DNA of 64,000 nucleotides from the NCBI GenBank assembly GCA_021018995.1, contig CM037587.1, positions 6,202,866 to 6,266,865 of the forward strand, given 5' to 3'. Positions 11,682 to 47,378 of this stretch are shown one piece after another. This DNA comes from Chloranthus sessilifolius (taxonomy: Eukaryota; Streptophyta; Magnoliopsida; Chloranthales; Chloranthaceae). The translations under genes were made by a program, and so were the position numbers. Position 1 is the first letter of the stretch; each line of letters starts with the position of its first letter. The notes beneath the pieces are model-generated. The model did no database searches and had not been told where the DNA came from. It saw only the letters and a program-made list of their open reading frames with translations.

Positions 11682-12466
11682 CTAAAAAGATTTCAGAAAG
11701 CAGGGTGAGCTACATCATAGCTCAATAGAAGAAAAACCATCTAAATGAATTGAATATGCAAATCATGCTATCTCATATCAGAAAACAAATCCAGATCATG
11801 TACTCAAAGCAAATCAGTTAAAAGCTGGAAACCTTATGCAAGATGTCAGATGTTATGCAGATATATTATCAGAATACTTAAAGTGTGTCTATTTAACTTA
11901 AGAAACTCCCGTGACTGTATAGCACGGAGTAAACAGGAATGTCCGATAGGAAACCCCAACCAAATCGTCGTTCACATGAACAATTTTGAAAGTGCAACAA
12001 TGCCTCATCTATGGAGCGCTATTGTGAGATTTGAAAGCAAATGCACAAGTGTGCTCGGACTCATACCGCCGGGCCGGTGGGGATCATCTGGATTAAATCA
12101 TCAAATCACATACTTATATACCTCACAGATCAGATAGCAGGAATTCAGAAAACAGATTTTTCAGATATACAGATCGGAAACAGAAATCAAAACGACAAGG
12201 ATCGTGCTATGCATACATGCTTGGTAAAACAGAAATCAGGGCATGAACATGAAATGAACATAAAATCATACTCAAAAGCAGTTTAAGTTGGTTTTCTCCT
12301 ACCTCGGATCGGTTTATCTTCTAAGCAAATCCAAAGCTTTTTCGACGTCGGTTTATCCTATACCATATGCACAGTATATTAAGTGTTAGGAACGTCAGAG
12401 AACTACCCGGCACAATATCCGGGGTGTCTACTTCATGAAGTCAAGACAGGCAAAAACAGGGGTGAG

Positions 12467-12915
12467 TGATCGATCACCACCCACTGTAGATCGATCACCA
12501 CCTTGGTGATCGATCACCAACCTGCTTATCTCTCTCTCAACACAGTCAAGGTTGATCGATCACCACCTTGGTGATCGATCACCAACCCTCCTGTAGATCG
12601 ATCACCACCTTGGTGATCGATCACCAATGCAATTTCAAAAACTTCCCCCTCCGTCCATCACTTCACTTATATAGATTGATCGATCACCACCTTGGTGATC
12701 GACCACCAACCCCATTGTAGATCGATCACCACCTTGGTGACCGATCTCCAGCCGCCATGTAGATCGAACACCACCTTGGTGATCGATCACCCACTCGGGC
12801 AAGAACTTCCCACTTCGGGTCTCGCTTCCCATGAGGCTTATCTGATTGATCGATCACGGTCCTTGGTGATCGATCACCAACTCTGATCGATCACCACCCT
12901 TTGGTGATCGATCAC
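12467..12915 (-). repeat. TGATCGATCA dyad-pair array, 19-bp pitch
   Basis: Pairs of TGATCGATCA-like palindromes start at 12488/12507, 12553/12572, 12595/12614, 12677/12696, 12719/12738, 12761/12780, 12847/12867 and 12884/12905; another copy is at 12467. Six of the eight pairs are spaced exactly 19 bp, with the near-constant spacer CCACCTTGG. Each pair is also part of a larger inverted repeat (GATCGATCACC and GGTGATCGATC). Confidence 0.9.
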
Positions 12916-13671
12916 CAATGATGTAAAGGAGTTCACCTCCCATCCATTTTTGATCTCCCTCCACTAATGGTTGTTCAATCACCATTAATACCTCATAAAT
13001 ACACACTTTAAGCTATTCATTTAACCCTATTTAACACACACAACTCACCTTGTTCGTGGGTTTCTTGGGGTTCCGGCAATGGCCCGAAAAGAGGGTTCCA
13101 AACCTAGATCTCGGAGCTCTTCCTCGATCCGGATCCGGCGAGAAGCTCTTCAGCTCTGGTTCGACAGATCAAGGCCTCACACACCAATCTCAAACTCCAG
13201 GTAACTCAATCACCTTGGTCTAGCTACTCTAGCTTAGAAATCCCTCATCTTCTCTCTTGCTAACCCCTTTTTCTTCTCTCTCAAAGGATCTCTTTCACGC
13301 CTTCTTAGCACAAATCTCCAACCTATGGAGCAATTAGGGCAAGGGGATGAAGGAGAAGAAAAGTGGAAGTCTCTCCTCTCTTGTCTCCCTTCCTTCCTCT
13401 ATAAGCTACCTCCTCAAAACAGAATTCCTGTTTTGCCCTTGGTGCCTGTTCCGGTGTGAAGCATGAACACAGTTGCTTCTGCGCAATGTGTTCCACCTAC
13501 CCTCTACACATCTAGGATCTAGATGAAATTTCACACGTGATCTCATCTCACCACAGTGCCACATCATTTAAACTAATATAACCCTAAAGTTTTTGAATCA
13601 ACCTTGGTTTCTGTGCCGGGCACGCGAATCAAAGCAGTCAGGCTCGTGTTCTAATTTTCAGGGTCGTTACA

Positions 13672-17616: not shown

Positions 17617-17639
17617 CGGCGCAACCTTGGATTTAACTC

Positions 17640-18005: not shown

Positions 18006-18259
18006 GGTACTGATCGATGCCAAAATGTGACTATATTTCGCACCTTAATCCCTACATTTAGCTGTTCGATGAAAGCATCTGATGGTTGTTGTAAGGTTTT
18101 GATATTTACAGGTGTTTCCGACCGTTGGATCGTTAAAGAGCATAAAAGAAGGTAATTAAAGGCTACACAAGAGCTATGGACAAAGAGGTCAAATGAAGCA
18201 TCGAAATCCGTGAAGAAAATCAGCATCTAGCAAGAGAGAGAAGACTTTACCCTGAGATG

Positions 18260-18423
18260 TCAATCGATTGAGGTATACGTGTCAATCGATTAACTCATGG
18301 AGAGAAGATTGTACCCTTAAATGTCAATCGATTGAGGACTAAGTGTCAATTGATTGACACGTGAAGACAACTTTGTCCCGAATTAAAAGTCAATCGATTA
18401 AGATTTAATTCTCAATCGATTGA
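18260..18423 (+). repeat. Three TCAATCGATTGA pairs in U3 of the 5' LTR
   Basis: Starts 18260/18282, 18324/18346 and 18390/18412: each pair exactly 22 bp apart. Some arms are decayed at the central CpG (18346 reads TCAATTGATTGA). The last pair ends 29 bp before the TATA box, where enhancer elements of LTR promoters usually lie. Confidence 0.95.
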
Positions 18424-18452
18424 GGTTATTAGGGTTAGGGTTGCTCGGCTGC

Positions 18453-18460
18453 TATAAAAG
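18453..18460 (+). promoter_or_regulatory. TATA box of the Athila 5' LTR
   Basis: TATAAAAG in a GC-richer context (GCTCGGCTGCTATAAAAGGG), conserved in the 3' LTR at 31422-31429. Transcription would start about 30 bp downstream. Confidence 0.8.
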
Positions 18461-19447
18461 GGAAGCTACGAGTTTGTTTAAAGGGGGGAATTATTTAAGA
18501 ATTAATAGAATTTTTGCATCTTGAGAGATATACTTTTTGGGAATTTGAAGGGTTCTTCTTTTCTCCTTCTTTTAGGGTTCTATCTCGGTAGATTGTAAAT
18601 AGGTTTTGCATTGTTTTTCCTTTACGTTCATGAAAGCATAGATTGTATTTAGGAAAAATAATTGTAAACAAAGATTTTTTGGAAGAAATGAAAAGAGGAA
18701 TGGCTTTGAATGAACAAGGAGATCATACACCAAAGATGAGCGGCTAAATCAGTTGATCGGGGAAGATGTGATCCCTAGATAAGTAGCAATTTTTTATGAT
18801 TAATACCGCAGTTAATTTATGTCATCATGAAATTGTTTTGCTAAAAGTTTGTGTTATTAAAAATATATTGAATGCTTGTTATGACCGTTGATTGCACGTA
18901 TCAACGGCCGTAATCGCTAGATCTGGACCTGCAGACTGATCTAGGCTGCAGAGCGATTATATTTTTACTGTCGTGATCTAAACATCATGAGATATGCTAT
19001 GCTTCTTACATGACTCATACCGCAATGATAGGCTGAGTCATTGTTTTTAGATAGGGTATGCCGGATTGATGATCATGTTTTCTTACTAATCATTTTTCTA
19101 TACGAATGATAGTGTGAATGATGCTTTAATGAAACTGTGGGTTTTAATGATAGAAAAGGGGTACAAATCTGGGATAGCATATTCCTTGATCATATTTAAA
19201 TATTGTTCTTAGATTCATCCTAAATTAGTTGTTTAGATTAATTTATTTTTCTTGCATTTAGGAAAAGTGTGATAAATTTTTGGTAAAATTGAATCTGTCC
19301 TTTGGTACTTCCTTGGGGACGTTTTTAAATCTCTGAAAGAATTAATTAAAATTCACATTTCCCTGTGGGTTCGACACCCTTGTTCTTGCCATACTACAAT
19401 AGATCTTGTGCACTTGCAAGGGTACACTTTAAAACCGATCAAGTTTT

Positions 19448-19463
19448 TGGCGTCGTTGCCGGG
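19448..19463 (+). other. Primer-binding site, tRNA-Asp type
   Basis: TGGCGTCGTTGCCGGG lies 6 bp after the LTR end and is complementary to the 3' end of plant tRNA-Asp apart from one C-to-T change. This primer is typical of Athila elements. Confidence 0.85.
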
Positions 19464-19519
19464 AAAATCGGAAGAATTTTGATTAATTCGGAAAAGGATT
19501 TGTTGAAACTGCTTGACAG

Positions 19520-20032
19520 TCAATCGATTGAGACCTTGGCTTCAATCGATTGACTGTGTTTTGTGTTTTGTGTTTTTCTAACTTGCCTTGTCAATCGATT
19601 GACGCGAAAGAGTCAATCGATTGACTATGTTTTGTGTTTTGTATTTTTCTAAGTTGCCTTGTCAATCGATTGACACGAAAGAGTCAATCGATTGACTGTG
19701 GTGAGTAAAAAATTTCTTTTCTTCTGATATTGGCTACTGTTTATCATAGACTCAATCGATTGAACATTCTCTGTCAATCGATTGAGACTGGGATATCATT
19801 TTCTGTGAAAATTCTGGGTCTCTATCAATCAATTGACATCACAGTATCAATCGATTGACTAGGCCTCTGTTGCTGGCCATTTCCGCTGACAGTTCTGTGC
19901 TGACTTACTTTGACTCTTTGAACCTCAATCGATTGAAAACAATTCTTCAATCGATTGACTGATAAAGTCATTTGTTTGAAAATTTATGTTTGCTTGTGTC
20001 AATCGATTGAAATACTTGTTTCAATCGATTGA
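19520..20032 (+). repeat. Seven TCAATCGATTGA pairs in the gag leader
   Basis: Starts 19520/19542, 19591/19613, 19662/19684, 19752/19774, 19825/19847, 19925/19947 and 19999/20021: all 22 bp apart. Spacers differ in sequence (for example AGACCTTGGC and AACATTCTCT). Pairs two and three are copies within a 71-bp tandem duplication (about 19550-19691). Confidence 0.95.
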
Positions 20033-20090
20033 AGTTGAATTTTTTTGGGTTTGTTGTGGATTCATCAAACCTTGTTGTGAGTGTTGGTGC

Positions 20091-21475
20091 ATGAGCTTTA
20101 CTCGATCTCATCACCCGCATCTGCAACTGTTTAATCTTGAGATCGAAAGATCTTGTAGAGAGAATCGTAGAATCCAGAGGAACCAGTATCATCATACTGA
20201 GACCATGGCAGACCAAAGGTAAGAGAGAAATGTGAATAACAATAATGGGAACGTCAATAATGAAAATAATAGGAACAATAATTTTGATGAGGGCCCTAGA
20301 ACATTGGAATATTATAATGATCCTAGTTTTTACGAGGATCAGGAATGTGTCATGCATGCTCCCATTCCAGGGAACCACTATGAATTCAAATCAGCAATGA
20401 TTTAAATGCTACCAATTTTCCATGGATTAGCAAATGAAAATCCGCACGTTCATCTAAATGAATTCACTGGGGTATGCAAAATGTTCAGAGTCCACAATGT
20501 CACTGATGAGATAGCTAAACTCCGACTTTTTCCTTTCTCTTTAAGAGATAAGGCAAAAATTTGGTTCTATTTCTTAGAACCACAATCTATCCAGAGTTGG
20601 GCAGAGCTACATCGTCAGTTCCTTAAAAAATATTTTCCCATGACTAAAGCCATTGAGTTGCGTCAGAAGATTCAATTCTTTTCCCAACAACCTACAGAAA
20701 CATTCCATGAATGTTGGGAACATTTTAAAGAACTGATCAGAAGTTTCCCAAATCATCAAGTTCCAAGATGGCAACAAGTCAAGTTTTTACAATGGCCTGA
20801 TTCCAGAAGAGGGGCGTATGGTTGATGCATCCTGTGGTGGATCATGTGCCACAAAAGAAGCTGACGAATTGTGGGCATTGTTTGAGAAGTTATATCAAAC
20901 TTTTGCACCTAAATCTCATGTGTTGACAAGAGATGGATTGTATGATGTCAACAATAATACCTCTGATCTATCAACAAAGGTTGACATGTTGTCTAAACAA
21001 ATGAATATGTTGTTAGCTGCGACTAAGCAAGCTAAAGCTCCTGTCACCCCCACTGTGTGTTCAATTTGTGACCACCCAGGTCACATGGCTAATGAGTGCC
21101 CTACTACCTTGTCATTCTTTCCTGATGAACCTACTCCTCAAGAGCATGTCAATGTGACTCAATCTTATCAGCAGCAAGGTAAAAACATGTACTCCAATAC
21201 CTACAATCTGGAATGGAAAAATCACCCCAACTTAGGATGGGGTGGATCGAACCAAACCGTCGTAAACCAAAGACAGAGCCAACACAATGGGTGAATTTCC
21301 AGCAGAATTCTAATTTCCATAAGAATTCCAATCTCCACCATAATGCACTGTATTATCATCCAAATTCTGAGTACAAAAAAAATCAGAATTTTAATCAAAA
21401 TCTCAATCAATCACATCCTAGTACTTCGAAAGATTCTAATTTAGAAGAAAAGGTGATGTGAAGCATGCAATCTTT
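20091..21475 (+). pseudogene. Athila gag
   Basis: The first suitable ATG is at 20091 (MSFTRSHHPHLQL). Stops at 20221, near 20403 and near 20823 and a frameshift near 20790 break the gene. The core at 20406-20825 (FHGLANENPHVHLNEFTGVC, LRDKAKIWFYFLE, AELHRQFLKKYFP) is the plant gag capsid domain. A CCHC knuckle CSICDHPGHMANEC lies near 21058-21099. The Asn/Gln-rich tail (NFQQNSNFHKNSNLHHN) reaches the stop near 21460. The capsid protein would package the element's RNA. Confidence 0.85.
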
Positions 21476-21614
21476 TCAGCAGATGATAATGGACCAAGTC
21501 AGTCAATTGCCCAATCAACTGAGTCAACGAGAGGAAAGTAGGCTTCCCAGCAAACCCATCAACAATCCTCGAGGCTAAACACCACCTGATGAAGGACCAT
21601 CGAATAGTCAACAG

Positions 21615-22478
21615 TTGAAGGCTGTTACGGTCCTGAGAAGCGGCAGAGAGGTGGATAATCAAGTGGAAATGCCTGTGGAATCTGATCAGGAAAAAGAGAA
21701 AGAAAGAGACAAAGAGCCAGAGAAAGAATCAGAGAAAAGAAAAGAATCAGAGAAAGAGAAAGAGCAAGGAAGAGATAAAGGAAACGAAAAAGTAATAGAG
21801 GAAGAGTCTCCTCCAACCGTCCAACAAGGACATGAAAAAGAATCGGAATTGGAATCTACACCTTATGTCCCAAAGGCACCATTCCCTAAATGCCTAACTC
21901 CTCCATCTATAATGGGAAAGGGACCAGCAAAAATGGAAGAAATCTTTGAAACAGTCAAGCAAGTAAAGATAAATCTTCCATTACTTGAAACAATCAAACA
22001 AGTTCCTGAGTATGCCAAGTTTTTCAAAGATTTGTGCACTTGTAAGAGAAAAGCACGTAATCATGTTTCAAAGAAAGTGTTCTTGACAAATCAAGTTAGT
22101 TCGATATTGCAATTGGAAACCCCACAGAAATTGAAAGACCCTGGAGTCCCAACTGTTCCATGTGTCATTGGTGGGCAACCAATTGAAAAGGCGTTATTAG
22201 ATTTGGGAGCAAGTGTTAATCTAATCTCATACTCAGTATACGAGAAACTCGGATTGGGTGAATTGAAACCCACGACGGTCACACTCCAACTGGCTGATAG
22301 GTCAGAAAGAAGACCTAGGGGTATTATCGAGGATGTTTTCGTTGGAATAGACAAGTTTATCTTTCCAGTGGACTTCGTTGTTTTAGACATGGAACCACCT
22401 GTTAAATCAATTAATCAAGTCCCCATCATCCTTAGACGTCTGTTTCTCGCCACTGCGAATGCTTGCATTAATTGTTGA
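21615..22478 (+). pseudogene. Athila protease region of gag-pol
   Basis: The open frame begins AVTVLRSGREV, has a long Lys/Glu-rich linker (residues 20-75, mostly KEKE repeats), then FKDLCTCKRK, and the retropepsin site LLDLGASVNLISYSVYEKLG with D-L-G-A-S. It ends in a frame change after VPIILRR (usually ILGRPFLATA). Linker and protease are arranged as in other Athila elements. The protease would cut gag and pol. Confidence 0.85.
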
Positions 22479-22992
22479 ACAGGAGTCATGGACGTTTCTT
22501 TTGGAAACATGAAGGTTAGATTGAACATATTCCATGCGATGAACCATTTCTCTAACGAGGAAGAGGTCGAATGTTTTTACATCGATTAGATGGACGAAGT
22601 GGTGGATGAGGCATTACCATCAATGCTCACCAAAGAAGAATTTGAAACTGCTTTATTGGCCATCTATGAAGAAAAAGGATCTGAAAGGAAGCAGTCAGAA
22701 GAGACGAAGTCGAGTTTATCATGTCCAGATGATGACTTATGTGAAACTGTGACTAAGGTAGAATCATTACCTATTGAGGTAAAGGATGTGCTGACTCCAT
22801 CAATTGAGCAACAACCAACTATGGAATTGAAATAGTTACCTGAGTCGCTCAAGTATGCTTTTAAGGGGCCACGAGAAACATTTTCGGTAATAATTTCCTC
22901 TACATTGTCGGTAGAATAAGAGCATGATTTATTGAAAGTGTTGAAAGAGCACAAGCAGGCCATCGGATGGACCCTAGCTGATCTAAAAAGGA
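22479..22992 (+). pseudogene. Athila pol, protease to RT connection
   Basis: Stops at 22477, 22587 and 22835 and others break the frame, but pieces are recognisable: MDVSFGNMKVRLNIFHAMNH after the protease and LPESLKYAF then HKQAIGWTLADLKRIDPSVC before RT. The last motif (IGW.L.D.KGI.PS.C) is constant in Athila-type RT and shows the reading order is intact. Confidence 0.75.
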
Positions 22993-24345
22993 TTGACCCA
23001 TCAGTATGTATGCACAAAAATACATCTGGAAGATGACAGTACACCATCGAGAGAACCACAAAGGCGACTTAATCCGAACATGCAAGAAGTCGTGTTAAAG
23101 GAAATCATTAAATTGCTCGATGCTGGAATCATCTATCCGATCTCTGATAGTGAATGGGTAAGTCCAGTCCAAATCATTCCGAAAAAGTCTAGAATCATGG
23201 TAAAAGAAACTGCTGAAGGAGAATTGGTCCCTACCCGCGAAACTACTGGGTGGCGTGTCTGCATTGATTATAGAAAATTGAATACAGCTACCAGAAAGGA
23301 TCATTTTCCCCTTCCGTTCATTGATCAAATTCTTGAGAAGTTAGCAGGGCAAGAGTTTTATTGCGTTCTTGATCGTTATTGGGGATACAATCAAGTGCCC
23401 ATTTTTCTACCTGATCAAGAGAAAATGACATTCACGTGCCCTTACGGTACGTTTGCATATCGAAGGATGCCGTTCGGCTTATGTAATGCACCTGCTACTT
23501 TCCAATGATGTATGTTGGCCATATTTTCGGATATGATTGACAGATTCATCGAGGTGTTCATGGACGATTTCTCTGTTTTTGGGAAGACGTTTGGTTCTTG
23601 TTTGAATCACCTTTCACAAGTGTTGCAACGTTGTGTAGATTCCAAACTTGTTCTCAGCTGGGAAAAGAGCCATTTTATGGTTCAACAAGGAATTGTGTTG
23701 GGATATATTGTTTCAAAGAAAGGAATTGAAGTTGATAGGGCCAAAGTTGATTTAATTGCCAATCTGCCACCACCTAAGAGTGTCCGACAAATTCGATCAT
23801 TTTTGGGTCATACCGGATTTTATAGAAGATTCATTAAAGATTTTAGCAAGGTGGCTAAACCATTGTGTACCTTGCTTGGCAAAGATGTTCCTTTTGACTT
23901 TGATGAGGATTGCATGAAAGCATTTCTGAAATTGCGCGAGCTCTTATCAAATGCACCGATAATCCAACCACCGGATTATTCTTTACCATTCGAACTCATG
24001 TGTGATGCATCTGATTATGCTATTGGAGCTATCTTAGGGCAAAGGGTGAATAAATTACCTCACGTAATTTACTATGCTAGCAAGACATTGATTGATGCAC
24101 AACTTAACTACACCACTGAGAAAGAATTATTAGTTGTGGTGTATGCTCTGGATAAATTTTGATCTTATCTGCTTGGATAAAAAATAGTGGTCTGTTCAGA
24201 CCACTCTGCATTAAAATATTTGTTGGCAAAGAAGGATGCCAAACAAAGATTGATCCGCTGGATCATGCTCCTTCAAGAATTCAATTTCGGAATCAAAGAT
24301 AAAAAGGGAGTAGAAAATGTTGTGGCTGATCACTTGTCTCGCATT
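22993..24345 (+). pseudogene. Athila reverse transcriptase and RNase H
   Basis: RT: WRVCIDYRKLNTATRKDHFP, FALLY-equivalent CVLDRYWGYNQVPI, YGTFAYRRMPFGLCNAPATF, stop (TGA at 23507, from CGA), then IEVFMDDFSVFG with the catalytic MDD. RNase H: MCDASDYAIGAILGQ, NYTTEKELLVVVYALDKF, two stops at 24160 and 24178, then [11 protein letters not shown] and VADHLSRI. All diagnostic blocks are in order; three stops and no internal palindromes. Confidence 0.92.
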
Positions 24346-25728
24346 TTGCCTGAAGAATTATTTGCACCTGAACCTATCCGGGACACTTTTCTGGATGAGC
24401 AATTAATGGCAATTGATGCGACTGCTACGAAAGCTCCTTGGTTTGCCAATATCGTGAACTATCTGGTCACTGACAGAATCCCTACTGAATGGGATAAGAA
24501 TGATAAACATCTCTTTTTCTCCCAAATAAAATACTATTTTTGGGATGAACCACAATTGTTAAAAATCTGTTCAGATCAAATTATCAGGAGATGTGTACCG
24601 GAAGAAGAGCAACTAAGTGTCATCAATTTCTGCCATGCTGGAGCCTGTGGAGGCCATTTTGGAGGACAGAAGACCGCACAAAAAATCCTTCAAAGCGGAT
24701 TCTACTGGCCCTCCATCTTTCGTGATGCTGCTCAATTTTACAAAGAATGCCAACAATGCCAACAGCTGGGAAATATTTCACGACGAAATATGATGCCCCT
24801 TAATCCGATTTTAATTGTTGAGATTTTTTATGTTTGGGGGATTGACTTCATGGGTCCTTTTCTCCCATCTTTCGGGTATTCATACATTCTTGTGGCTGTT
24901 GATTATGTCTCTAAATGGATAGAAGTTGTGGCAACCCGATCGAATGATCACAAGGTCGTTATCAAATTCCTGAGAGAAAATGTGTTTAACCGATTTGGGA
25001 TCCCGAGAGCAATCATTAGTGATGGCGGTTCATATTTCTGCAACAGCCATTTTGCCACTCTAATGAAGAAATATGGCGTTACCCACAAGGTTGCAACGTC
25101 ATACCATCCGCAGACTAGTGGTCAAGTGGAAGTGTCGAACGGGGAGATCAAACGAATTTTAGAAAAGACGGTACGACCGGATAGAAGAGATTGGTCGAAC
25201 CGGCTATCTGATGCTCTTTGGGCATATCATACTGCATTTAAGGCACCGATCGAAATGTCTCCGTTTAGACTTGTCTACAGGAAAGCATGCCATCTTCCTG
25301 TTGAATTGGAACATAAGGCATTTTGGGCCATCAAAAGATTGAATTTCAATATGCAAGCAGCAGGATCAAATCGACGGCTACAGTTGAGTGAATTGGAAGA
25401 ACTACGCTACGATGCGTATGAAAATTCGAAAATGTACAAGGAAAGGTACAAAAAGTTGCACGATGAGTCCATTTCTCGAAAGGAGTTTCACATTGGATAA
25501 AAAGTTTGGTTGTTCAACTCACGACTTAAGCTCCACCCGGGAAAACTGAAATCTAGATGGGAAGGCCCGTTTCAGGTTGTTTCCATTAGTGTGCATGGTG
25601 CGATTGAGATCCGCAGTCTCAAGGACAATCGAGTTTTCAAAGTCAATGGGCAACATCTTAAACCGATGTTTGAGCCAATCACCCAGTGTAAGATTGTGGC
25701 GATGCACCTCAGTGACCCAGGTATTTGA
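24346..25728 (+). pseudogene. Athila integrase
   Basis: Zinc finger [15 protein letters not shown] ... CQQCQQLGN; catalytic Asp in WGIDFMGPF, Asp in [11 protein letters not shown], Glu in [12 protein letters not shown]. The C-terminal part has the region [17 protein letters not shown] near 25540, interrupted by one TAA at 25498 (probably CAA). It would join cDNA to target DNA with a 5-bp stagger, in agreement with the observed 5-bp duplication. Confidence 0.92.
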
Positions 25729-26448
25729 TCAATGAAGTGGTCGAGCTGTCGACAATTAAACTCAGCGCTTCCTGGGAGGCAACCCAGTGTGTTTTATTTA
25801 TTTATTTTTTTCTGTGTTGTTTTGGTTAGGATTGTGTCTTATTCTCAATCGATTGACTGTCAAATAGTCAATCGATTGACTCAGACCCCTCAATCGATTG
25901 ACATTTCCCTGTCAATCGATTGATAAGTCAAGCATTAACATCATCTCACTCTTTTTGTGTCAATCGATTGATAATCTTGTGTCAATCGATTGACAACACC
26001 TAGAAGTTATAGCAGTTTTTGGAACTTGGAGCGCCACCCGACACATCTTGTCGTGGCAGCTAGCTTTCTAGGCACGTTTGTGTCAATCGATTGAGACCAA
26101 CCCCTCAATCGATTGACTTGATTGGGTATTTACTGCACCCGTTTCCAAGGCACCTAACCGGTGCAACTTTTTGAAAAAGTGTGTCCTTAATCAATTGACA
26201 GAACATTGTCAATCGATTGACATTGAAAGAGGAGAGGTGGATTGTGCCACGTATCATTCGCATGCCTGACGACTTTCCAAATTCACGCGACGTGGGCAAA
26301 CCAACCATTCTCAATCAATTGAGGATTCATCCTCAATCGATTAACATCTATATTATATAAGTGGGGTCACAACCTGTGGCTCCCTCATTCCGCCTCCTCT
26401 CAAATCCAATCCGCATCAAGCTTCTATATTCTCCTCGTACGCGATCGA
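25729..26448 (+). repeat. Post-pol region with six palindrome pairs
   Basis: No gene. Starts 25845/25868 (23 bp, the only exception), 25890/25912, 25960/25982, 26083/26105, 26187/26209 and 26311/26333 (22 bp each); 25868 to 25890 is also 22 bp. Arms at 26187 and 26311 are decayed at the central CpG (AATCAATTGA). A TATATTATATAA stretch at 26348-26359 lies about 90 bp before the next ORF and could be its own promoter. Confidence 0.9.
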
Positions 26449-27621
26449 ATGGCGGCGCCTGGCCCACCAATCTTTCGTCCACCGCGTCCCGCCAAAGATC
26501 CGATGCGCATCCCTAATGAGCACTATATCGATCGCCAGTTCCAAACAGAAAATTTCTTCAACCTCGCCAAATACCGTCACATCGCGAAATGTGCCCGCTC
26601 AATCGAATTCATCGAGTCTTTGCGATTGGAAATGTTGCTTGCCTCGCCGCCCATAGATGTCTCTCTGCGAATCATTCGCCTGCTTTATCAGAAAATGGTA
26701 TGGGTACCGGAAACAGTCTCACCAACGGGAATGCCCTTCATCACCATCGAGATCGACAATTGGCAATATAATCTGCATGCTGCCGATCTCGCGCATGCCT
26801 TCAAATTTTATGTGGTTCGTCCTTTGAACCTCCACATTAATCCGGCTATTGATCTTAGTCAGGAAGACATGATCAATAATATGTGTGGAGGACATCGCGG
26901 GACTGGTCAATCCACTAAACGGGCCGTCTTACCTATGGACATCTTGTTTTGGGATATTGTCATGGCGACCAACCTTCTACCGCATGGCACAAAAAGTGAG
27001 CAGACGAAGAATAGGGTAGCGGCACTTTATGCGGCGCACACAAACACTTGGTTTGATGCACCCGGTCTGATGCTCGAGGAGATGTATCGGTGTCACCAGG
27101 ACATCGCCACCACCACCATACCGGCGAAGCATGCAGCGATTCTCCTCCATTTCCCGCACTATGTGATGCATCTTTTGGATCACCTTGGCTGCCCTATTTA
27201 CGATGATGAGGAGTTGGGCGACATGCAATTTTATTAGTATGGCATCAATGTATGGGATAAGAGCATCAAAGCGATTCTTCGTGCGCAGCCACCTCCGATT
27301 GATGTCGACGATGTACCTCCTCCTCCCCGTCCAAACCCCGGACAACGCCAACGTGGCGGTATTAGACGACCTCGTCCCGAAGAGGTCCCAGAATTTGATG
27401 CCGAGGCAGCTGTTGCTCGCCTCGAGGCGCGGATGGATGGGTTGAATGCAAGGCTTGGTGGTGTTGATCGAAGATCTAGGTTTCAGACCTCTCTTCTCAT
27501 GCGGATGGCCCGGGAATCGTTCCCAAGGCGTGCCGACGAATTCATCGTAGGAGCGCGAGCGGCGATGAACGAGGAGAGGGACCCTAAATTTGATGATGAT
27601 GATGATGATGATGATGTGTAA
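26449..27621 (+). pseudogene. Athila accessory ORF 1
   Basis: One frame of 390 codons with a single TAG at 27235. It begins MAAPGPPIFRPPRPAKDPM and continues with a mainly helical middle (YQKMVWVPETVSP, LHAADLAHAFKF, LPMDILFWDIVMATNLLPHG). The C-terminal region is Pro/Arg-rich (PPPPRPNPGQRQRGG), then a coiled-coil segment (AAVARLEARMDGLNARL) and a poly-Asp end encoded by a GAT repeat. Placement after integrase matches the extra ORF of Athila elements. I see no envelope-like signal peptide or membrane segment, so I assign no function. GC content is clearly higher than around it. Confidence 0.75.
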
Positions 27622-28401
27622 TGTTTAGTGTGTGGTTATATGTGTTGTTTAGTGTTTTTGTCTGTTAGTGTGTGTGTTTGTTATTTTTGGCTGATCTTAT
27701 ATTTTTTTTTAAGTTTTTAGGATAGATTAATTTCAGTTTGACCAATGGGTGTAATCAATCGTTAAAAAAAAAATCAATGGCATCGGAGTGTTTTAATGTG
27801 TTAATTTTGCTGTGTTTGCATCTCAGGTGTGCATATGTTCATTAGTCAATCGATTGAGATGAAGCTCTCAATCGATTGAACACCTTACTTTTGAAATTCA
27901 GGAACTGCAACTCTTCTAAAGTCAATCGATTGAGATGAAGCTCTCAACCGATTGATTCCTGCATCCACAAACAGTAAAGTTTTGTAATGGGAAAGTTTTG
28001 ACCGTATACCAGACGACATACTTGGTATTCAGGGTCAATCGATTGACAATAAAATGTCAATCGATTGACTTCTGCGTGGTCAAACTGTCACCCTCAGTCA
28101 GAAACAGAAAGTTGCTAAAAGATACGGTGTGCTGAGGGTGGATTTTTGAGCCGTGCACCATCGGCCTATGTTGACATCTTGTGTCAATCGATTGACACTA
28201 AACTGTCAATCGATTGACTGATGCTTAATTCCGAAAAGTTACACCACACCGTCCAAAAATCAAGTCTTTTAGAGTTCGTCTGGTAGGAGGTTTCGTAGAG
28301 GGTCTTTCGAGTCCATATTTTAGGAAACTTCTCTCTATTTAAATCACTCGAAGGGTAGTCCTATAGTCAAACTTTTAGTTTTTCTTCCTCACGTTTTAGC
28401 C
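27622..28401 (+). repeat. Spacer between accessory ORFs with four palindrome pairs
   Basis: No gene. Starts 27846/27868, 27922/27944, 28035/28057 and 28184/28206, all 22 bp apart. One arm (27944) reads TCAACCGATTGA. The region just before the next ORF (28330-28401) has a leader-like pyrimidine-rich stretch. Confidence 0.9.
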
Positions 28402-28743
28402 ATGTCTTCCATGCGGTATCGTACCTGATCCGCCATGAAAAAACTGACGGAGCCCACAACCAAACGTGCACGTTATCACGCTCCGCCGCCACCACTCGAC
28501 TTGTCGAATCATGACGTCATCAACCTTGATGATGAATCCCCTCTAGAAGGCAACTCAATTTTCACGCGCTCCGCTGAGGCCGTCCACGACCCAATTCCGC
28601 CTCTCGTACCACCACCTCCTACCCCACCATTTTCACCACCCCGTGCACCAGTTCCGCCGCCTGGCGAGGTTGGCATCACTGAGGAGATGTGGAACTATGC
28701 GTTTCTGAAGCCAACGGAAGGAAGTTCTATCATGGCTGACTAA
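28402..28743 (+). pseudogene. Athila accessory ORF 2, small Pro-rich protein
   Basis: I prefer the ATG at 28402 (MSSMRYRT); an in-frame TGA at 28426, probably from CGA, separates it from a second ATG at 28435. The product of about 113 residues has a short basic start (KKLTEPTTKRARYH), an acidic NLDDES patch and a Pro-rich middle (PLVPPPPTPPFSPPRAPVPP). GC content is high as in accessory ORF 1. I know no family for it. Its own leader and the codon-like conservation argue that it was a gene. Confidence 0.55.
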
Positions 28744-30979
28744 AAGGATTAGGATTTTCAGTTTTAGGGTCTCGTTTTAGGTGTCTTTAGGTTAGGTTTG
28801 TTTTTTTTTTTTATGTTTTAGTTTAGGTTTGATTTCAATTAATTTTAGGATCGGATTTTAATTTTGCAATAATTGTAATAGGTTTCCTTATATTTAATAA
28901 TATTTAATTTCGTTAGTTAAATATTTGTGTTTTTATTTTTTATTTTCATCATCCCTTTCACTTGATCTAGTTCTTTTGGTCCTCGAGTGCATCATAACAG
29001 GTTTGGGGGGGTCTTACCTCCTATTTCAACACCAATGAGGACATTGGAGAGTTCAGGTTTGGGGGGGGGTAATTTCGGTGATTTTCATAAAGCTTCGGTT
29101 TAATACCGTTTAAAAAAAAAAGAAAAAAAAAAAAAGAAAAAGAAAACCGTTTTCAGACCTTGAAATCATATCAGTCAATCGATTGAGATTATTGTCTCAA
29201 TCGATTGACTGCTAACCATCAATTAGTCAATTGGAAATTGTAACAGTCAATCGATTGAGACATTGGTCTCAATCGATCGACTGATGACAGGAAGGCTAAT
29301 GAAATTCGAATTTTTATTCATATTCTCAAATTTGTGGATGACCTAAAATTCTTTAAAATTTGTTATCATACCATGATTATTTTTATGAATGCTTATAAAG
29401 TTCAAGATTAAAATAGTGATATTCATGATCTATGCCTGAAAAATTTGTGCACCATCACTTTCCTTCAATTCCAAGTTTGAGAATTAAGTGTATGACTTGA
29501 AATTTTCAGATCTCAAGGAAGGCTTAAACCCAGTGAGTTTTGAACTTTGTCTTCATTCTTGATGAGTGTTGAAATAAATTCAGAGTATCTTTGAATTCCT
29601 GCTTCAATTGTTAAAATCTCATTTATTTTACTTTGATTTGTTGATTGTACGTGTGTTATACCATTACACTAGAAATCAATGTGTATTAACTCAAGGCAAA
29701 TAGGCATATTTTATCATAATGAAAGGAAATGATCTAAGGCCATTATTGGCTCGTTTGTGCCCAAAGTATCCCACCATATAGTGATCTATCTTGTTGCACC
29801 CCCTTTGAGCCTCAACTTAAAATTTTTGCCTTATTTATTCTTTGAAAGCTATATTAACCATACCCCACACCAGTTTTAAAAGCCTTACCCCTTTATCTCT
29901 GAGAAATTAGGGACGAGATCAAGGAAGGAAACAAAAGGTTATGGCGGTAATATCTGTAAGGAATAAATGGCAGAAAATTGAATGAGGAGAGAAAAAAAAA
30001 AAAAAGATTCAATTAGTGCAAAAAAGTAGAAAAATATATGGAAGTGATGTTAAGAAAAAAAAAAAAAAAAAAAGAGAAGAAAGAGAAAAGTGTTTATGAA
30101 AAGAGAAAGGTTCTAGAAACTCCGGAAAAGGAAGTTGAAAAATAAGAAAATCAGTATGTGTCTTATTCCGATTTCTCAGAGAAATTTGAATCTAATTTTC
30201 CCTTACTTTCTTAACCTCTACCCGAGCCCCATTACAACCTTAGAAAAGACCTTTTTAATCCAATCATGAGTAGTAAATGCCTTGTGGAGAGTGATTGCAC
30301 AATGCCTATGGTGCTTGGTATATGCATGTTTGAAATACAAATATCTTTCTTAAAATGGGATTTCTTTCTAAAATTCTTTGATGCACCGTCTTTCTTATAA
30401 CTTGTGAGACTTTTCTAAATTGCATTGTAACTCTATCTCACATGGGAGAAAATAAATAAATAAATAAAATCATTCATCAGGAGTGATTTCATTCTGAGTA
30501 TATACCCATGGTAAGGATTGAGTCTAGGCGTGTGATCTAAAGGTTCCTAGTTTAAGCTTCTTCTCAGACAAAAGAATTTGAGTAGTGATAATTGCATAAC
30601 ATTCTAAGGCATAAAACATGAGCATTGAAAAATAATGGATTGGATCGAATGAGCACTAATGAAATGGACATGATCAGATGCATTTTAAAAGATTTTCCAG
30701 GGACATTTGACTGCTTAAGGGCATGACTAAAAAAAAAAAAAAAAAAATTCTGAAATTCATAAGTTTTGAAGTTTGTAGGTATCTTCACTGGAAACCTTCA
30801 GGAGACACAACTCCTCCACTAGGGATCACCTAGGGGTTTAAAGGCTTGTTGCATGCACTAAATGCAATCGTGTTCCCTACGAAAGTGGCATTTAAAATTT
30901 TTAGGATGTTAGTTGTATTTGCTTTACATATTTTTCATTCTCTTTGCTCAAGGACTAGCAAAGTGTAGGTTTGGGGGTG
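28744..30979 (+). other. Athila 3' untranslated region with repeated G-runs and A-tracts
   Basis: No gene. Notable parts: TTTGGGGGGG at 29002-29011 and 29058-29069 flanking an ACCAATGAGGACATTGG motif; A-rich tracts at 29112-29144, 29992-30004, 30056-30074 and 30730-30747; and a final TTTGGGGG tract (30970-30977) next to the 3' LTR, which is the working polypurine tract. The same landmarks occur in the decayed element at 2789-4122. Confidence 0.75.
29175..29280 (+). repeat. Two TCAATCGATTGA pairs in the 3' region
   Basis: Starts 29175/29197 and 29247/29269, both 22 bp apart; the last arm reads TCAATCGATCGA. Confidence 0.93.
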
Positions 30980-32389
30980 TGATCGGTGCCGAAATGTGAC
31001 TATATTTCGCACCTTAATCCCTACATTTAGCTGTTCGATGAAATCATCTGATGGTTGTTGTAAGGTTTTGATGTTTACAGGTGTTTCCGACCGTTGGATC
31101 ATTAAAAAGCATAAAAGAAGGTAATTAAAGGCTACACAAGAGCTATGGACAAAGAGGTCAAATGAAGCATTGAAATCCGTGAAGAAAATCAACATCTAGC
31201 AAGAGAGAGAAGACTTTACCCTGAGATATCAATCGATTGAGGTATAAGTGTCAATCAATTGACTCATGGAGAGAAGACTGTACCCTTAAATGTCAATCGA
31301 TTGAGGACTAAGTGTCAATCGATTGACACATGAAGACAACTTTGTCCCGAATTAAAAGTCAATCGATTGAGATTTAATTCTCAATCGATTGAAGTTATTA
31401 GGGTTAGGGTTGCTCGGCTGCTATAAAAGGGAAGCTACGAGTTTGTTTAAAGGGGGGAATTTTTTAAGAATTAATAGAATTTTTGCATCTTGAGAGATAT
31501 ACTTTTTGGGAATTTGAAGGGTTCTTCTTTTCTCCTTCTTTTAGGGTTCTATCTGGGAAGATTGTACCGAGGATTTGTATTATTTTTCCTTTACGTTCAT
31601 GAAAGCATAGATTATATTTAGGAAAAAGAATTGTAAACAAAGATTTTTTGGAAGAAATGAAAAGAGGAATGACTTTGAATGAACAAGGAGATCATACACC
31701 AAAGATGAGCGGCCAAATCAGTTGATCGGGGAAGATGCGATCCCCAGATAAGTAGCAATTTTTTATGATTAATACCACAGTTAATTTATGTCATCATGGA
31801 ATCGTTTTGCTAGAAGTTTGTGTTATTAAAAATATATTGAATGCTTGTTATGAGTATCACGTAGAATTCTAGATCCGGACTTGATGATCTAGGCTGCAGA
31901 GCGATTATATTTTTACTGTCGTGATCTAAATATTATGAGATACGCTATGCTTCTTACATGACTCATACTGCAATGATAGGCTGAGTCATTGTTTTTAGAT
32001 AGGGTATGCCGGATTGATGATCATGTTTTCTTACGAATCATTTTTCTAGACGAATGATAGTGTGAATGATGCTTTAATGAAACTGTGGGTTTTAATGATA
32101 GAAAAGGGCTACAAATCTGGGATAGCATATTCCTTGATCATATTTAAATATTATTCTTAGATTCATCCTAAATTAGTTGTTTAGATTAATTTATTTTTCT
32201 TTCATTTAAGAAAAGTGTGATAAATTTTTGGTAAAATTGAATCTGTCCTTTGGTACTTCCTTGGGGACGTTTTTAAATCTCTGAAAGAATTAATTAAAAT
32301 TTACATTTCCCTGTGGGTTCGACACCCTTGTTCTTGCCATACTACAATAGATCTTGTGCACTTGCAAGGGTATACTTTAAAACCGATCA
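30980..32389 (+). repeat. Athila 3' LTR
   Basis: 1410 bp, starting TGATCGGTGCCGAAATG and ending AAACCGATCA, followed by GGTAC. It retains the three palindrome pairs (31229/31251, 31293/31315, 31359/31381; all 22 bp) and the TATA box at 31422-31429, 29 bp after the last pair. Confidence 0.96.
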
Positions 32390-32394
32390 GGTAC

Positions 32395-34004: not shown

Positions 34005-37000
34005 TGTGACAGCCCGAATTTTCCCAACCTAAATTTTTTCACGATATATAAATATTTTTTTTTCTTTTAGACCAAAATCAAATGGGAAAACCCGGACCGC
34101 CTGATCGTAGATCACAATCTAATACAGAATATTTGGTACAAACATAATGTATAATTAAAACCTCCAGCTCTAATATCCAATATATATAAAGTAACAGACA
34201 CCAGTGATGGCCAACAATCACCAACAGTAATGTACAACAGTACAAAAGTACCAAGCCTTAACTAACCAAATCCACAAATCCAAATTCTACGATCCCAAAA
34301 TAAAAGACAAAAAGTGAAAGCTTTTATTCTTTAGTATGTAATCTGGGTCTTCCTCAAACCTATACCTGTGACGTATAGTTGAGGGTGAGCTAACATCTAA
34401 GCTCAGTAGAAGAACATCAATAGCAATTACATCTTACTAATGACAAAGCTCAAAGCAGAAGCAGATCAGATACTTAAAAGACGAAATTCAAGGATTTAAC
34501 AGATCAGATAATTGAGATAGATCAAAAGCGATAACAGGGCAAATGACAGAAACATAATCTATAACATGGAAGATATTCGTTACAGAAATAAAAGCTCACA
34601 TTTCTTGTTTACTTCACTCACTATGTTCACATCACTCACTGTGTTCACTTAAGTATGCTACGAAATGCATACGGATCGCCTCCATACAGGCCCACTATGT
34701 ATGCTATGCAATGCGTATAGATCACCCCGTACAGGCCCATTATGTATGCTATGCACTGTACACTGTGTATGGATAACCGCCGTACTAGTCCACTTGTCAA
34801 TGTCTACTCACAGTCAAAGTTCGAATATGTTCTCACTATTCACATTCACTCTCAGATACAGGGTTCAAGGTTCATACTTAGCAATTCAACACTAAGTCTA
34901 TCTAGTTTCCAAGGTTCAGAGTTCAATCATCCATATTCTAAATTTTCCAGTTACAGTCAGATAACATCACCCAAACATCCAGAGATTCAACTTCCTATAA
35001 TTTCTATTCAATTTTTCGAAACAGAGTCCCATATTCATTCTAATTCAAAGTTCATAGGCAAGTTCAACTAATCATATCTCTTACAAAAACAGAACAAATC
35101 AAATCATAAGCAAAACATAAAGAATTAGATTAAAACAAAATTGAACGGAACGAATCAGATCACAAGCGGAAGCACGGAATAATCAGATCATATACGAAAA
35201 CAGAATAAAAACAAAACATATCAGAATATATGTGGAAACGGGACGAAAATAGAACATATCAGAATGAAAACAAAGAATCAGGTCGAATATCAAAGAAACT
35301 ATGAATCAATTTATAAAATGTAATTTTCGTTGAGTTTCCCTACCTTAATCTCGGAGCCGTTCCAAAGAAATCCAAAAGTTCCTATCCACGGCCTCCAACT
35401 CTTGGTCTACATCACACATATGATGTTGTATTAAAAACTTATTCTAATTACTAATAACGTTGACATATTTAAGTATTTTCTCAAAATCGAGGCAGAAATG
35501 GCTAAGTTCGTGTTGACTCGAAACTTGACTCAACTTCCTGCTTAATTTTGACCCTCAAAACATTTGATTCATAAGCTAGCTAAATCATAAAAGTTGTAGA
35601 TCTCATTGTTCTCTTTCCAACGCATCAAGAATTCCATTAATCAAAGTTCAGAGGAAAGAGTTATAGCTAAAATACCAAAGCTGTATCGGTACTTCAGTCA
35701 AAACGTGTTAACTTAGAACTTGGCCTAACTTACAGCTCAATTTTAATCCTTAAAATAATTTATTCATCAGTTGGTCAATTTATAAGAGTTGTAGATTTAG
35801 TTTTTCTCTTTCCGACGTCTCAAAAATTGCGTCAATCCGAGTTCGTAGTAAAATGTTATATCCAAAATACTGAAGCAGTGTTGACACTTCAGTCTAATTG
35901 ATCGATCGTATTTTTCTCATTGATCGATCAAACCATTACATTGATCGATCAATTTCCACATTGACCGATCAAACCAACATTGATTGATCAATTTCCTCAT
36001 TGATCAATCAAACTATCACATTGATCAATCAATTTCCACATTGATCGATCAAACCAACATTGATTGATCAATTTTCTCATTGATCGATCAATCCTATCGG
36101 GCATGAACTTCCAAAAAATACACTTTCTGTTTCTATAAAAGCATATATAATTTGATCGATCAATCTTCCAGATTGATCGATCAATTACCTAATTTGATCG
36201 ATCAAAGATGACAGTTTCTGTCATCAATGCCGATCATCAATCTTGACCTATTTTCATCCAAATCTTTGATGATCTTCATCAAACCACACACACATACACA
36301 CTAAACTAAAACCAGGATTTATTCTATAATCTAAACCATTAAAATTAAAGAAAAACTAACCTTTCTTCAATCGATTTCGCGACCTTAAGAATCGTTTTCC
36401 AAAAAGGGGTTTTCGAAATGAAACTTTGGATTCTTACAACGATTGATCACTATGACTTTAATATGACGTTTTGTACGATCACGGATCGATTTCAACCTCT
36501 TCGAATCGCGAAAGATGATGGTGAGATGATCGGTTCGCACTCGATTCAAATTCAAAGGTTTCCAATGGTTGGGACTTGGTAGAAAATGAAACCATTGTGG
36601 TGATTGGTGTCAAGCATTTTGCGAAGAGTGCGGAGTTCAAGGCACAATCACGATCTTCTTTCAAGCTTTCTCTTTCTTTCATTCTCTCTCTCTCTCTCTC
36701 TTCAAAATCCAAAAGGCTAAGCTTAGCATTCAAGCAACCCACGCCTCTCTCTCTTATACCTTAAAACCCAACCAAAATATCTAGATATTTTTACACCAAA
36801 TTCTATCCACTTACCTTAGACTTGGCTTCGGTGTTGAGCGGCACACGGTGCGTCGGTACGTGACTTTCACAGTAAAGGCCCAAATACACATTTAAACCTT
36901 AATCCATTTGCACAAAATTATCTTAATATTATTTAATGATTTGTTATTATATAAAAATCATGGGGACATCGATTTTAGTGTCGGACACATACACAGGGTC

Positions 37001-41045: not shown

Positions 41046-41430
41046 ATTGATCGATTAAATTTTTCTCATTGATCGATCAAACCATCACATTGATCGATCA
41101 ATTTCCACATTAATTGATCAGACCAACATTGATTGATCAATTTTTCTCATTGATCAATCAAACCATCACATTGATTGATCAATTTCCACATTGATCGATC
41201 AAATCAACATTGATTGATCAATTTCCTTATTGATCGATCAAACCATCATATTGATCGATCAATCTTCAAATTTGATCGATCAAATCTCAAATTTGATCAA
41301 TCAATACTATCGAGCATGAACTTCTAAAAAATACACTTTCTATTTCTATAAAAGCATATATAATTTAATCAATCAATCTTCCAGATTGATCGATCAATTC
41401 CAAATTTAATTGATCAATTACCTAATTTGA
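41046..41430 (-). repeat. TTGATCGATCAA array of the 5' LTR
   Basis: Sister of the 35898-36207 array, with more copies (about 17) and more CpG-decayed arms (TTGATTGATCAA, TTGATCAATCAA). Pitch again about 20 bp. The extra units near 41250-41310 show that the array changes its copy number. Confidence 0.88.
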
Positions 41431-41911
41431 TTGATCAAAGATGACAGTTTCTGTCATCAATGTCGATCATCAATCTTAACCTATTTGCATCCAAATCTTT
41501 ATTGATCTTCATCGAATCACACACACATACACACTAAACTAAAACTAGGGTTTATTCTACAATCTAAACCATTAAAATCAAAGAAAAACTAACCTTTCTT
41601 CGATTGATTTCGCGACCTTAAGAAACATTTTTCAAAAAGGGATTTTTGAAATGAAACTTCGGATTCTTACGGCGATTGATCACTATGACTTTAATATGAC
41701 GTTTTGTACGATCAAGGTTCGATTTCAACCTCTTCGAATCGTGAAAGATGATGGCGAGATGATCGGTTCACACTCGATTCAAATTCAAAGGTTTCCAATG
41801 GTTGGGATTTGGTAGGAAATGAAACCCTTGTGGTGATTGGTGCAAAGCATTTTGCGAAGAGTGCGGAGTTCAAGGCACAATCACGATCTTCTTTCAAGCT
41901 TTCTCTTTCTT

Positions 41912-47363: not shown

Positions 47364-47365
47364 AT

Positions 47366-47378
47366 TGGTATCAGAGCC
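47366..47378 (+). other. Copia primer-binding site, tRNA-Met type
   Basis: TGGTATCAGAGCC, two bases after the LTR end, complementary to initiator tRNA-Met. Confidence 0.92.

Follow-up and report, generated by a model that had tools for sequence, protein, structure and literature searches.

Organization of the host element

The window, i.e., the whole 64,000-bp stretch of Chloranthus sessilifolius DNA that was analysed, contains a 14.4-kb LTR retrotransposon, the features of which are collected in Table 1. Both ends of this element are flanked by the TSD GGTAC, read from the sequence at 18006–18010 and 32390–32394, and its LTRs differ by 64 substitutions in 1411 aligned bases. The primer site TGGCGTCGTTGCCGGG is presumably of the tRNA-Asp type. 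The same tRNA is named as primer for Diaspora and Calypso in the excerpted text of PMC1142308. Pfam matches place RVT_1 first, RNaseH second and integrase last, which is the Ty3/gypsy domain order, and several breaks interrupt the reading frames of this copy. An Athila integrase carries no chromodomain, and no chromodomain match was found in the integrase tail (25501–25725); a neighbouring minus-strand element does contain one (14574–14798, E 1.1e-6). Judged by resemblance, the element would belong to the Athila lineage, as the first-pass annotation had labelled it, and both this label and the primer site fit.

The Transposase_32 match of the accessory, env-like ORF1 (E 2.6e-4, 21 bits) lies below the curated cut-off of 45 bits, and one stop codon separates ORF1 from an in-frame piece at 27238–27621, termed ORF1b. 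No DNA-binding domain was recognised in ORF1, ORF1b and ORF2 by Pfam, nor in ORF1 by comparison with solved structures (best E only 1.7). None of 358 candidate proteins was related to ORF1 at E 0.001, and the ORF1 structure model, built from two rows, was uninformative (pLDDT 38.6). In viral contigs no relatives were found, either by integrase or by two palindrome-pair patterns.

Table 1. Features of the window with their positions
Feature	Position	Strand	Basis or remark
5' LTR, Athila-type element	18011..19441	+	read from sequence
U3 array, three 12-10-12 modules	18260..18423		site positions
LTR TATA box (TATAAAA), 29 bp past last palindrome	18453..18459	+	sequence
Primer binding site TGGCGTCGTTGCCGGG	19448..19463	+	identified by eye
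Leader array, seven modules, PBS-gag interval	19520..20032		site positions
gag, protease, RT, RNaseH, integrase pieces	20406..25500	+	Pfam; palindrome-free
Array upstream of ORF1, 12 sites incl. 26187 (two mismatches)	25845..26344		site positions
Probable internal TATA box (TATATAA), 9 bp past last palindrome, 95 bp before ORF1 ATG	26354..26360	+	sequence; equal gap in L010, L012
Accessory (env-like) ORF1	26449..27234	+	weak Transposase_32 match
Array between accessory ORFs, four modules	27846..28217		site positions
Small accessory ORF2, proline-rich	28435..28743	+	without Pfam match
3' region array, two modules	29175..29280		site positions
3' LTR	30980..32389	+	with three modules at 31229–31392, TATA at 31422
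GGTGATCGATCACC array of second family (17 sites, at most three mismatches each), within-group steps 17–23	12465..12918		sequence
Third family, ATTGATCGATCAAT array, sites with at most four mismatches, steps 19–22, in long LTR	35897..36206		element on minus strand
Third family, matching array in other LTR copy	41046..41439		sequence

Paired palindromes with a fixed step

The palindrome TCAATCGATTGA is present in 40 exact copies in the window, every one within 18260–31392, and shuffled sequence gave a mean of 0.02 exact copies (largest 1). When one mismatch is allowed, the number rises to 49 (40 exact and nine one-mismatch copies), located in a single Athila-type element. It was initially reported that these copies form 25 pairs, 24 with a start-to-start step of 22 bp and one with 23 bp, and remeasurement gave identical values, the 23-bp pair being 25845/25868. 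The sole unpaired copy, at 26209, has a two-mismatch partner 22 bp upstream (26187). Random placement of sites in the same six blocks (5000 trials) produced on average 1.2 steps of 22 bp, and six at most. Coordinate comparison places 0 of the 49 palindromes inside the gag, pol and accessory frames, in line with the first-pass annotation.

What is conserved in the 34-bp module is distance, as had been proposed, since the spacers differ: their mean pairwise identity is 35% (21 of 24 modules, the three 3'-LTR modules being excluded) vs 25% expected from composition, and the sites themselves are 97% identical. Six of 210 spacer pairs show three or fewer differences over ten positions, some of them derived from local tandem duplication. 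Mismatches affect 9 of 588 site bases (11 of 600 with 26187 included), which is below the approximately 13 expected at half the LTR divergence (2.3%), thus implying that the sites were near-identical at insertion. Two other kinds of order were also considered. Helical phasing between modules was ruled out, as no phasing was detected among the between-pair distances (Rayleigh p 0.35–1.0), and a loxP-like recombination site was dismissed on inspection because every 12-mer is palindromic by itself.

Conservation in the genome and in related elements

The first-pass annotation had considered that the steps might be evenly spread in other copies, or that the pairs might be absent from relatives and reflect one local amplification. 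Instead, at least 18,872 exact 12-N10-12 modules were counted across the 2.17-Gb genome (0 for the reversed-pattern control), compared with 921 for spacers of 0–9 bp pooled, so that 22 bp dominates in a count covering spacers of 0–10 bp, and the palindrome pairs are not a local amplification. Since loci L007–L022 (16 of 23 fetched 10-kb loci) were selected for holding an exact pair, steps that involve a mismatched site were counted apart: 30 of 65 such steps of up to 60 bp are exactly 22 bp, the next commonest being 42 bp (five) and 19, 21 and 53 bp (four each). Loci L003–L006 overlap L007–L010 and were excluded from step, cluster and TATA counts, L023–L026 were taken at round coordinates, and L027–L029 head a list of 60 drawn at random.

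Alignment of related copies gives a footprint of the sites. Among seven LTRs (21 pairs), chosen among TATA-bearing clusters and including the closely related window, L011 and L018 copies, palindrome columns, defined by the window sequence, are 83% identical (1097/1324) and other columns 47% (2041/4357); in one far LTR pair the values are 97% vs 33%. Upstream of ORF1, in the window element and three relatives, identity is 82% in sites (670/822), 41% in spacers (160/387) and 51% in the rest (814/1585).

These footprints contradict the notion that the arrays are a functionless, minisatellite-like by-product of replication slippage. Some arrays are indeed plain tandem repeats, e.g., part of the 20-bp array of L027, and 64- and 71-bp tandem copies are present in the window element. 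However, a head-to-tail unit would include the spacer, and the local tandem copies apart, spacers are nearly random next to sites of high identity; moreover, sites are kept in LTRs that differ at about two thirds of the remaining aligned positions. A functionless by-product of this kind is therefore hardly credible.

Spacing between palindromes and TATA boxes

The gap between the last palindrome and the TATA box, given previously as 29 bp for the LTR, was found to be the same in both window LTRs, and it is 9 bp at the window ORF1 array. The plus strand of the element has three TATAWAW words in total, each no more than 29 bp after a palindrome. In L007–L023, 34 clusters with two or more sites were examined; the first TATAWAW lies at 28–31 bp in nine (29 bp in five, 31 bp in three, 28 bp in one) and at 9 bp in two, and a random position had such a word at 28–31 bp in 0.4% of trials. 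Of these clusters, 14 have a TATA word at 5–60 bp, against a mean of 3.1 and a highest value of 9 in 500 null draws, and 20 have none in this interval; no cluster of L007, L008, L009, L014, L015 and L017 has one within 100 bp. Four clusters have their first TATA word at other gaps, namely 2 bp, 4 and 16 bp (on either side of a single cluster), 33 bp and 72 bp. Of the 14 clusters with a TATA word or a near one, 13 were compared individually (L016 excluded), and the counts above cover all 34. Three of the four compared elements (window, L010 and L012) have a 9-bp gap in front of the env-like ORF, and in L019 both the last module and the TATA before ORF1 are missing.

This register also bears on the RNA alternatives, of which dimerisation had been raised earlier. 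According to these, the 12-bp stems with 10-nt loops would act in genomic RNA during dimerisation, in its packaging or translation, or would give rise to small RNAs. Folding of the leader is much stronger than that of shuffled sequence (z = -9.67), and in maize Sirevirus LTRs small RNAs map to palindrome clusters (PMC10760457 and PMC5311732, excerpts). However, this z-score is not diagnostic, since palindromic words fold strongly by construction. A hairpin requires neither a fixed 22-bp step nor a fixed distance to the TATA box, which is nevertheless seen in many clusters, and the 5' U3 arrays are expected upstream of the transcription start, as judged from the TATA box. An RNA-level role is thus not favoured as the main function and appears very unlikely, while an RNA side-effect is possible.

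Palindromes of other elements

The pairs had been described as a feature of an Athila element. They are present there, and yet this scope proved too narrow, because other elements carry different palindromes at steps near 20–22 bp. In the window, TATATAAGTG (minus strand, near 12673) adjoins a palindrome of the second family. The third-family element, which we take to be Tekay-type, has its primer-site word on the minus strand (39040), and TATATATG adjoins its palindrome on that strand at 36149/41362; for the same reason of strand, TATAAAAG at 36135/41350 was dropped as a word serving this family. Its third LTR copy (4125–7108) is array-free. A fourth word, AATTCGATGGTCGAATT (1395–1470 and 8442–8607), has irregular steps and is not counted as support. 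The centre ATCGAT is common to the three window families and to tobacco Tnd-1, and not to all palindromes of other loci.

A change of word at a nearly constant step might also be expected if an accessory protein bound the non-coding palindromes of its own element, with an own word for each family, and acted as a self-regulating or anti-silencing factor that keeps the element unmethylated, as VANC does. VANC targets are likewise short non-coding motifs, which occur as tandem repeats and vary from one related TE to another (PMC5735166, excerpt). The restriction of window sites to non-coding stretches and the local tandem duplication as a visible mode of growth agree with this, and the central CpG could give methylation-sensitive binding. 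In excerpts on sunflower Athila elements, a nuclear signal is predicted for an accessory protein that partially resembles Transposase_32 (PMC11728184), and LTR methylation differs among clades (PMC12844716). On the other side, the window accessory ORFs are without a recognised DNA-binding domain, ATCGAT is common to different lineages, VANC motifs have one orientation rather than dyad symmetry, and such a factor has no need for a TATA register. Locus L021 has the same word and no ORF1 match, which counts little, since its integrase match is also absent and it may be a deleted copy. Taken together, we consider this explanation unlikely.

Proposed role of the modules

The reading that we prefer is that the palindromes are probably recognised in promoters by a dimeric DNA-binding protein, two dimers of which bind together. 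The sequence itself shows the motif, its step, a TATA register and sites that are conserved where spacers are not; from these we infer protein binding, the pair-of-dimers state, and activation rather than repression, which agrees with the DNA-level dimer-of-dimers site suggested previously. In such a model each 12-mer would accept one symmetric dimer, and two dimers placed 22 bp apart, approximately two helical turns, would lie on one DNA face and contact each other, so that the 34-bp module would be the functional unit. In the LTR, the last module, 28–31 bp before the TATA box, would drive transcription of genomic RNA. A second set, 9 bp before the probable internal TATA box, is likely to drive the env-like ORF separately, and the leader, inter-accessory-ORF and 3' arrays may be additional enhancer copies. 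The 9-bp TATA gap fits a repressor equally well. Further points against this reading are the clusters with no TATA word nearby or with one at other gaps, the module and TATA missing in L019, the array-free LTR copy of the third family and the lack of helical phasing between pairs. As ATCGAT is shared by the three window families and Tnd-1, we lean towards a binder from a host DNA-binding protein family.

A broader reading, which is tentative and on balance doubtful, is that a single promoter grammar is common to numerous families of LTR retrotransposons in this plant, i.e., family-specific palindrome pairs two helical turns apart and registered to the TATA box, read by a diversified DNA-binding protein family, element-encoded or host, with the word changing and the geometry constant. 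If true, transcription would rely on a TE-specific system that co-evolves rapidly, and env-like genes would be expressed from their own promoter, not by splicing. The element suggests a constant geometry combined with a changing sequence, as would be expected where a protein and its DNA site evolve fast together. For two open questions on plant retrotransposons, how LTRs are switched on and how env-like genes are expressed, it offers an explicit and testable answer in the form of a 34-bp module at a defined position in front of two TATA boxes.

Comparison with known systems

The exact 12-N10-12 pattern was found at two places of a prokaryote collection, in matching surroundings. In Geothrix rubra (L002) the module lies between two divergent TetR genes, and here and in an Acidobacteria bin (L001) the presumed TetR-type tandem operators have the identical geometry and the same 12-mers. 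They are bacterial and their operator function is deduced; no relation by descent is suggested, only a geometry that suits pairs of dimers, and in this sense they support the preferred reading. In the Drosophila gypsy element, the Su(Hw) insulator similarly clusters sites for a host protein in the leader. Unlike the window modules, it has no palindromic pairs, acts as an insulator and belongs to an animal.

In VANDAL DNA transposons, the VANC targets are 9-base motifs in one orientation, whose binder is known and encoded by the element itself (Hosaka et al., 2017, PMC5735166; PMC10398659; excerpts). As in the window, these motifs are short, mainly non-coding and family-specific, and grow by tandem duplication. 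VANC target words differ between related elements; here different elements differ, and the close relatives compared share the palindrome word with the window element. The VANC targets differ from the window sites in carrier and orientation, and the excerpts of both papers mention no relation to a TATA box.

The closest counterpart is the repeated motif (RM) of Ty1/copia Sireviruses, i.e., element-specific palindromes that occur many times in front of both the LTR TATA box and the env-like gene (Bousios et al., 2010, PMC2829016, excerpt). Among the listed papers holding the exact 12-mer or 10-mer, this one alone is relevant, the others being unrelated judging by title. Judged by title or abstract start, no paper found in the open-licence literature describes comparable arrays for Athila or Tekay elements, nor did the excerpts of PMC2820488, PMC11300327, PMC1142308 and PMC12844716 contain any for gypsy elements. 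The kind of feature is already known from Sireviruses. Within the searched literature, what appears to be new is the strict step, the register to the TATA box and the occurrence in Ty3/gypsy carriers, by which a feature described as Sirevirus-specific is extended to Ty3/gypsy elements. Like RM, which have dyad symmetry and at least eight copies per element, the window palindromes are symmetric and numerous (49 copies), and their clusters lie upstream of the LTR TATA and the env-like gene. For the Sirevirus env-like gene, an internal promoter had not been conclusively identified (PMC2829016, excerpt). Moreover, the tobacco Tnd-1 motif ACAATCGATTGT shares its 10-bp core CAATCGATTG with the window palindrome. 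In the excerpted text, the other 12 of 13 RM bear a CGG-CCG signature, whereas the core here, like that of the exceptional Tnd-1, is ATCGAT, and neither strict 22-bp pairs nor a TATA register are reported for RM. Sites in the leader, between the accessory ORFs and in the 3' region are a further difference. Since their carrier has the Ty3/gypsy domain order, the window palindromes are not a member of the Sirevirus RM, but they would work like them.

Palindrome Pairs in the Window Element

The palindrome TCAATCGATTGA is present in the window in 40 exact copies (49 when one mismatch is allowed), all of them within 18260-31392. The 25 short steps between neighbouring sites measure 22 bp in 24 cases and 23 bp in one, which is the count of the first-pass annotation, and 5000 trials of random placement in the same blocks gave at most six steps of 22 bp. 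The sole unpaired copy has a two-mismatch partner exactly 22 bp away. It had also been claimed that distance is kept while spacers differ, and this was borne out among 21 modules (34-bp units of two palindromes and a 10-bp spacer, 3'-LTR modules excluded), where spacers are 35% and 12-mers 97% identical.

The carrier is an LTR element flanked by a 5-bp target duplication. It holds gag, protease, RT/RNaseH and an integrase in which no chromodomain match was found, followed by accessory ORFs ahead of the 3' LTR, and it is filed as Athila-type by features rather than by a tree. Its reading frames are broken and its LTRs diverge by 4.5%. Half of this divergence (2.3%) predicts about 13 site mismatches; the observed number is 9 of 588 bases in a site list limited to one mismatch, hence also the figure of 11 of 600 counting the site at 26187. 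Since the mismatches do not exceed the prediction, the sites were near-identical when this copy inserted. Seven of the nine are C-to-T or G-to-A, a bias that would be expected of methylated DNA. G...C flanks occur at 31 of 42 outer versus 16 of 42 inner positions (Fisher p 0.002, although modules depend in part on one another), which hints at recognition of the module as a single unit. The pattern of site versus spacer is best read as selection, not amplification.

Conservation and Genome-Wide Occurrence

Three relatives carry an ORF1 (the env-like accessory ORF 3' of integrase), or pieces of it, in which 68-85% of residues match the window copy. All three keep modules downstream of integrase and ahead of ORF1; across every pairwise comparison of the four elements, identity is 82% at sites, 41% in spacers and 51% in the rest. 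Seven LTRs were also aligned, from the window and the genome loci L011 and L018 (these three being close relatives), L012 (intermediate), L019 and L022 (both far from the window) and L021. Identity there is 83% in columns that are sites in the window and 47% in the others, the former figure being lowered because some modules are absent from L018 and partly from L011, L019 and L021; between L012 and L022 the values are 97 and 33%. Absence of the pairs from relatives, considered in the first-pass annotation, is thus not what was found in the three relatives and the LTRs compared.

In the 2.17-Gb genome the 12-N10-12 module occurs at least 18,872 times and its reversed control 0 times, and spacers of 0-9 bp pooled at least 921 times (lower bounds, for spacer lengths of 0-10 bp). 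An even spread of distances in other copies had been considered as well. Within 23 loci of 10 kb, 65 steps no longer than 60 bp involve a mismatched site and hence could have had no part in picking the loci; 30 of them measure 22 bp, followed by 42 bp (5) and 19, 21 and 53 bp (4 each).

Position Relative to TATA

The plus strand of the 14.4-kb window element holds only three TATAWAW words, one per LTR and one before ORF1, each downstream of a palindrome at gaps of 29, 29 and 9 bp; the gap of 29 bp had been annotated earlier and was found in both LTRs, and its difference from 9 bp is again about two turns. The survey was extended to every cluster of two or more sites in L007-L023 (34 clusters; 10-kb loci, L007-L022 picked for an exact pair), taking the first TATAWAW up to 100 bp downstream, outward on either side. 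The gap is 29 bp five times, 31 bp three times, 28 bp once and 9 bp twice, with single gaps of 2, 33 and 72 bp and one cluster that has 4 bp on one side and 16 bp on the other; the other clusters have no TATAWAW within 100 bp. The arrays at 28-31 bp (L011, L012, L013, L018, L019, L020, two in L021, L022) are taken for LTR arrays, and those at 9 bp precede ORF1 in L010 and L012; before ORF1 of L019 both the last module and the TATA are missing. In L023 one TATA word stands at 2 bp and another was counted at 31. Of 20,000 random positions tried, 83 had their first TATA word at 28-31 bp, and a TATA word lies within 5-60 bp of 14 of the 34 clusters versus 3.1 expected (maximum 9 in 500 draws). Clusters lacking a TATA, e.g., those of the leader, would need another role, for example as enhancer copies.

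Other Palindromes with a Similar Step

Outside the Athila element, 24 pairs of 10-bp palindromes lie 15-25 bp apart in the window versus a mean of 0.7 and a maximum of 3 in 30 shuffles. The arrays are listed in the table together with neighbouring features.

Palindrome arrays and neighbouring features (window coordinates unless a locus is named)
Feature	Position	Setting	Remarks
GGTGATCGATCACC array	12465-12918	other element	steps 17-23 bp within groups; sites with up to 4 mismatches counted
ATTGATCGATCAAT arrays, two copies	35897-36206 and 41046-41439	long LTRs of a minus-strand element with short internal part	steps 19-22 bp; up to 4 mismatches
CGCTCGAGCG-like palindromes	L029:890-3380	random locus	22 bp in 12 of 21 short steps
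ATCGGCCGAT-like palindromes	L027:590-6430		over 30 exact 20-bp steps; part is a plain 20-bp tandem repeat
Same 12-N10-12 sequence	L001:3649-3682 and L002:5233-5266	prokaryote loci	likely operator
Interrupted palindromes AATTCGATGGTCGAATT	1395-1470 and 8442-8607	repeats related to 42042-43703	array region does not align with 42042-43703
Chromodomain gypsy element	14574-18044 and 32603-32938	minus strand; split by the Athila insertion	Chromo E 1.1e-6, integrase match; right-hand piece assigned by eye
Apparent exons of an ordinary plant gene	43930-44330		taken by us to resemble monodehydroascorbate reductase

The GGTGATCGATCACC array, one palindrome of which is adjoined by TATATAAGTG on the minus strand, lies upstream, on that strand, of an ORF 27% identical to ORF1, with over 1 kb of intervening sequence. 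The LTRs with ATTGATCGATCAAT are presumably Tekay-type, judging from their ends and primer site; a third, diverged copy of this LTR (4125-7108) has no array, and no neighbouring palindromes were found in the copia element at 46894-53978. Seven loci, L023-L029, were chosen regardless of motif. Same-word pairs at 19-23 bp occur in four of them (14 pairs in total, plus 10 spaced differently within 11-60 bp), and shuffles (40 per locus) yielded neither. A fifth, L028, has a degenerate array, and L024 and L025 have no such palindrome array. A further word in this set, CGATTAATCG, has steps of 19-22 bp. The pol of L029 is similar to that of the chromodomain element in the window, and TATATAA stands 9 bp after one of the CGCTCGAGCG-like palindromes of this locus.

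A Putative Promoter Module and Its Known Counterparts

A protein acting on double-stranded DNA is indicated by the constant step, the set distance to TATA and the lack of constraint on the spacers; in the simplest form, two dimers would sit side by side on the module. Activation by the LTR sets is suggested by their place upstream of TATA, and for the internal set at 9 bp repression could also be considered. Two exact 12-N10-12 places with matching surroundings were found in a prokaryote collection, in Geothrix rubra and an Acidobacteria bin, and the Geothrix site (L002) is located between two divergent TetR genes. By analogy, and with no kinship implied, this shows that the geometry would suit pairs of dimers. 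As judged from sequence, the palindrome pair is real, conserved and genome-wide, and it would be a promoter module of a known kind, read by a putative binder; the TATA gaps of the full set of 34 clusters support this reading.

In Sireviruses, palindromic motifs that differ from element to element are described ahead of the LTR TATA box and ahead of the env-like gene; the authors regarded the feature as Sirevirus-specific against other Ty1/copia elements, listed tobacco Tnd-1 with ACAATCGATTGT, and suggested regulation and an internal env promoter, which was not conclusively identified (PMC2829016). According to a review, transcription of env-like genes starts in the 5' LTR, with splicing in some elements (PMC7264820). 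In VANDAL transposons, VANC proteins are reported to bind short motifs of the non-coding regions, which differ between families (PMC5735166, PMC10398659), and a sunflower Athila accessory protein, partly similar to the Transposase_32 domain that ORF1 weakly matches, is predicted to be nuclear (PMC11728184). The kind of module is therefore known; what seems to be new, within the literature searched, is its presence in gypsy elements, the strictness of the pairing and the register with TATA.
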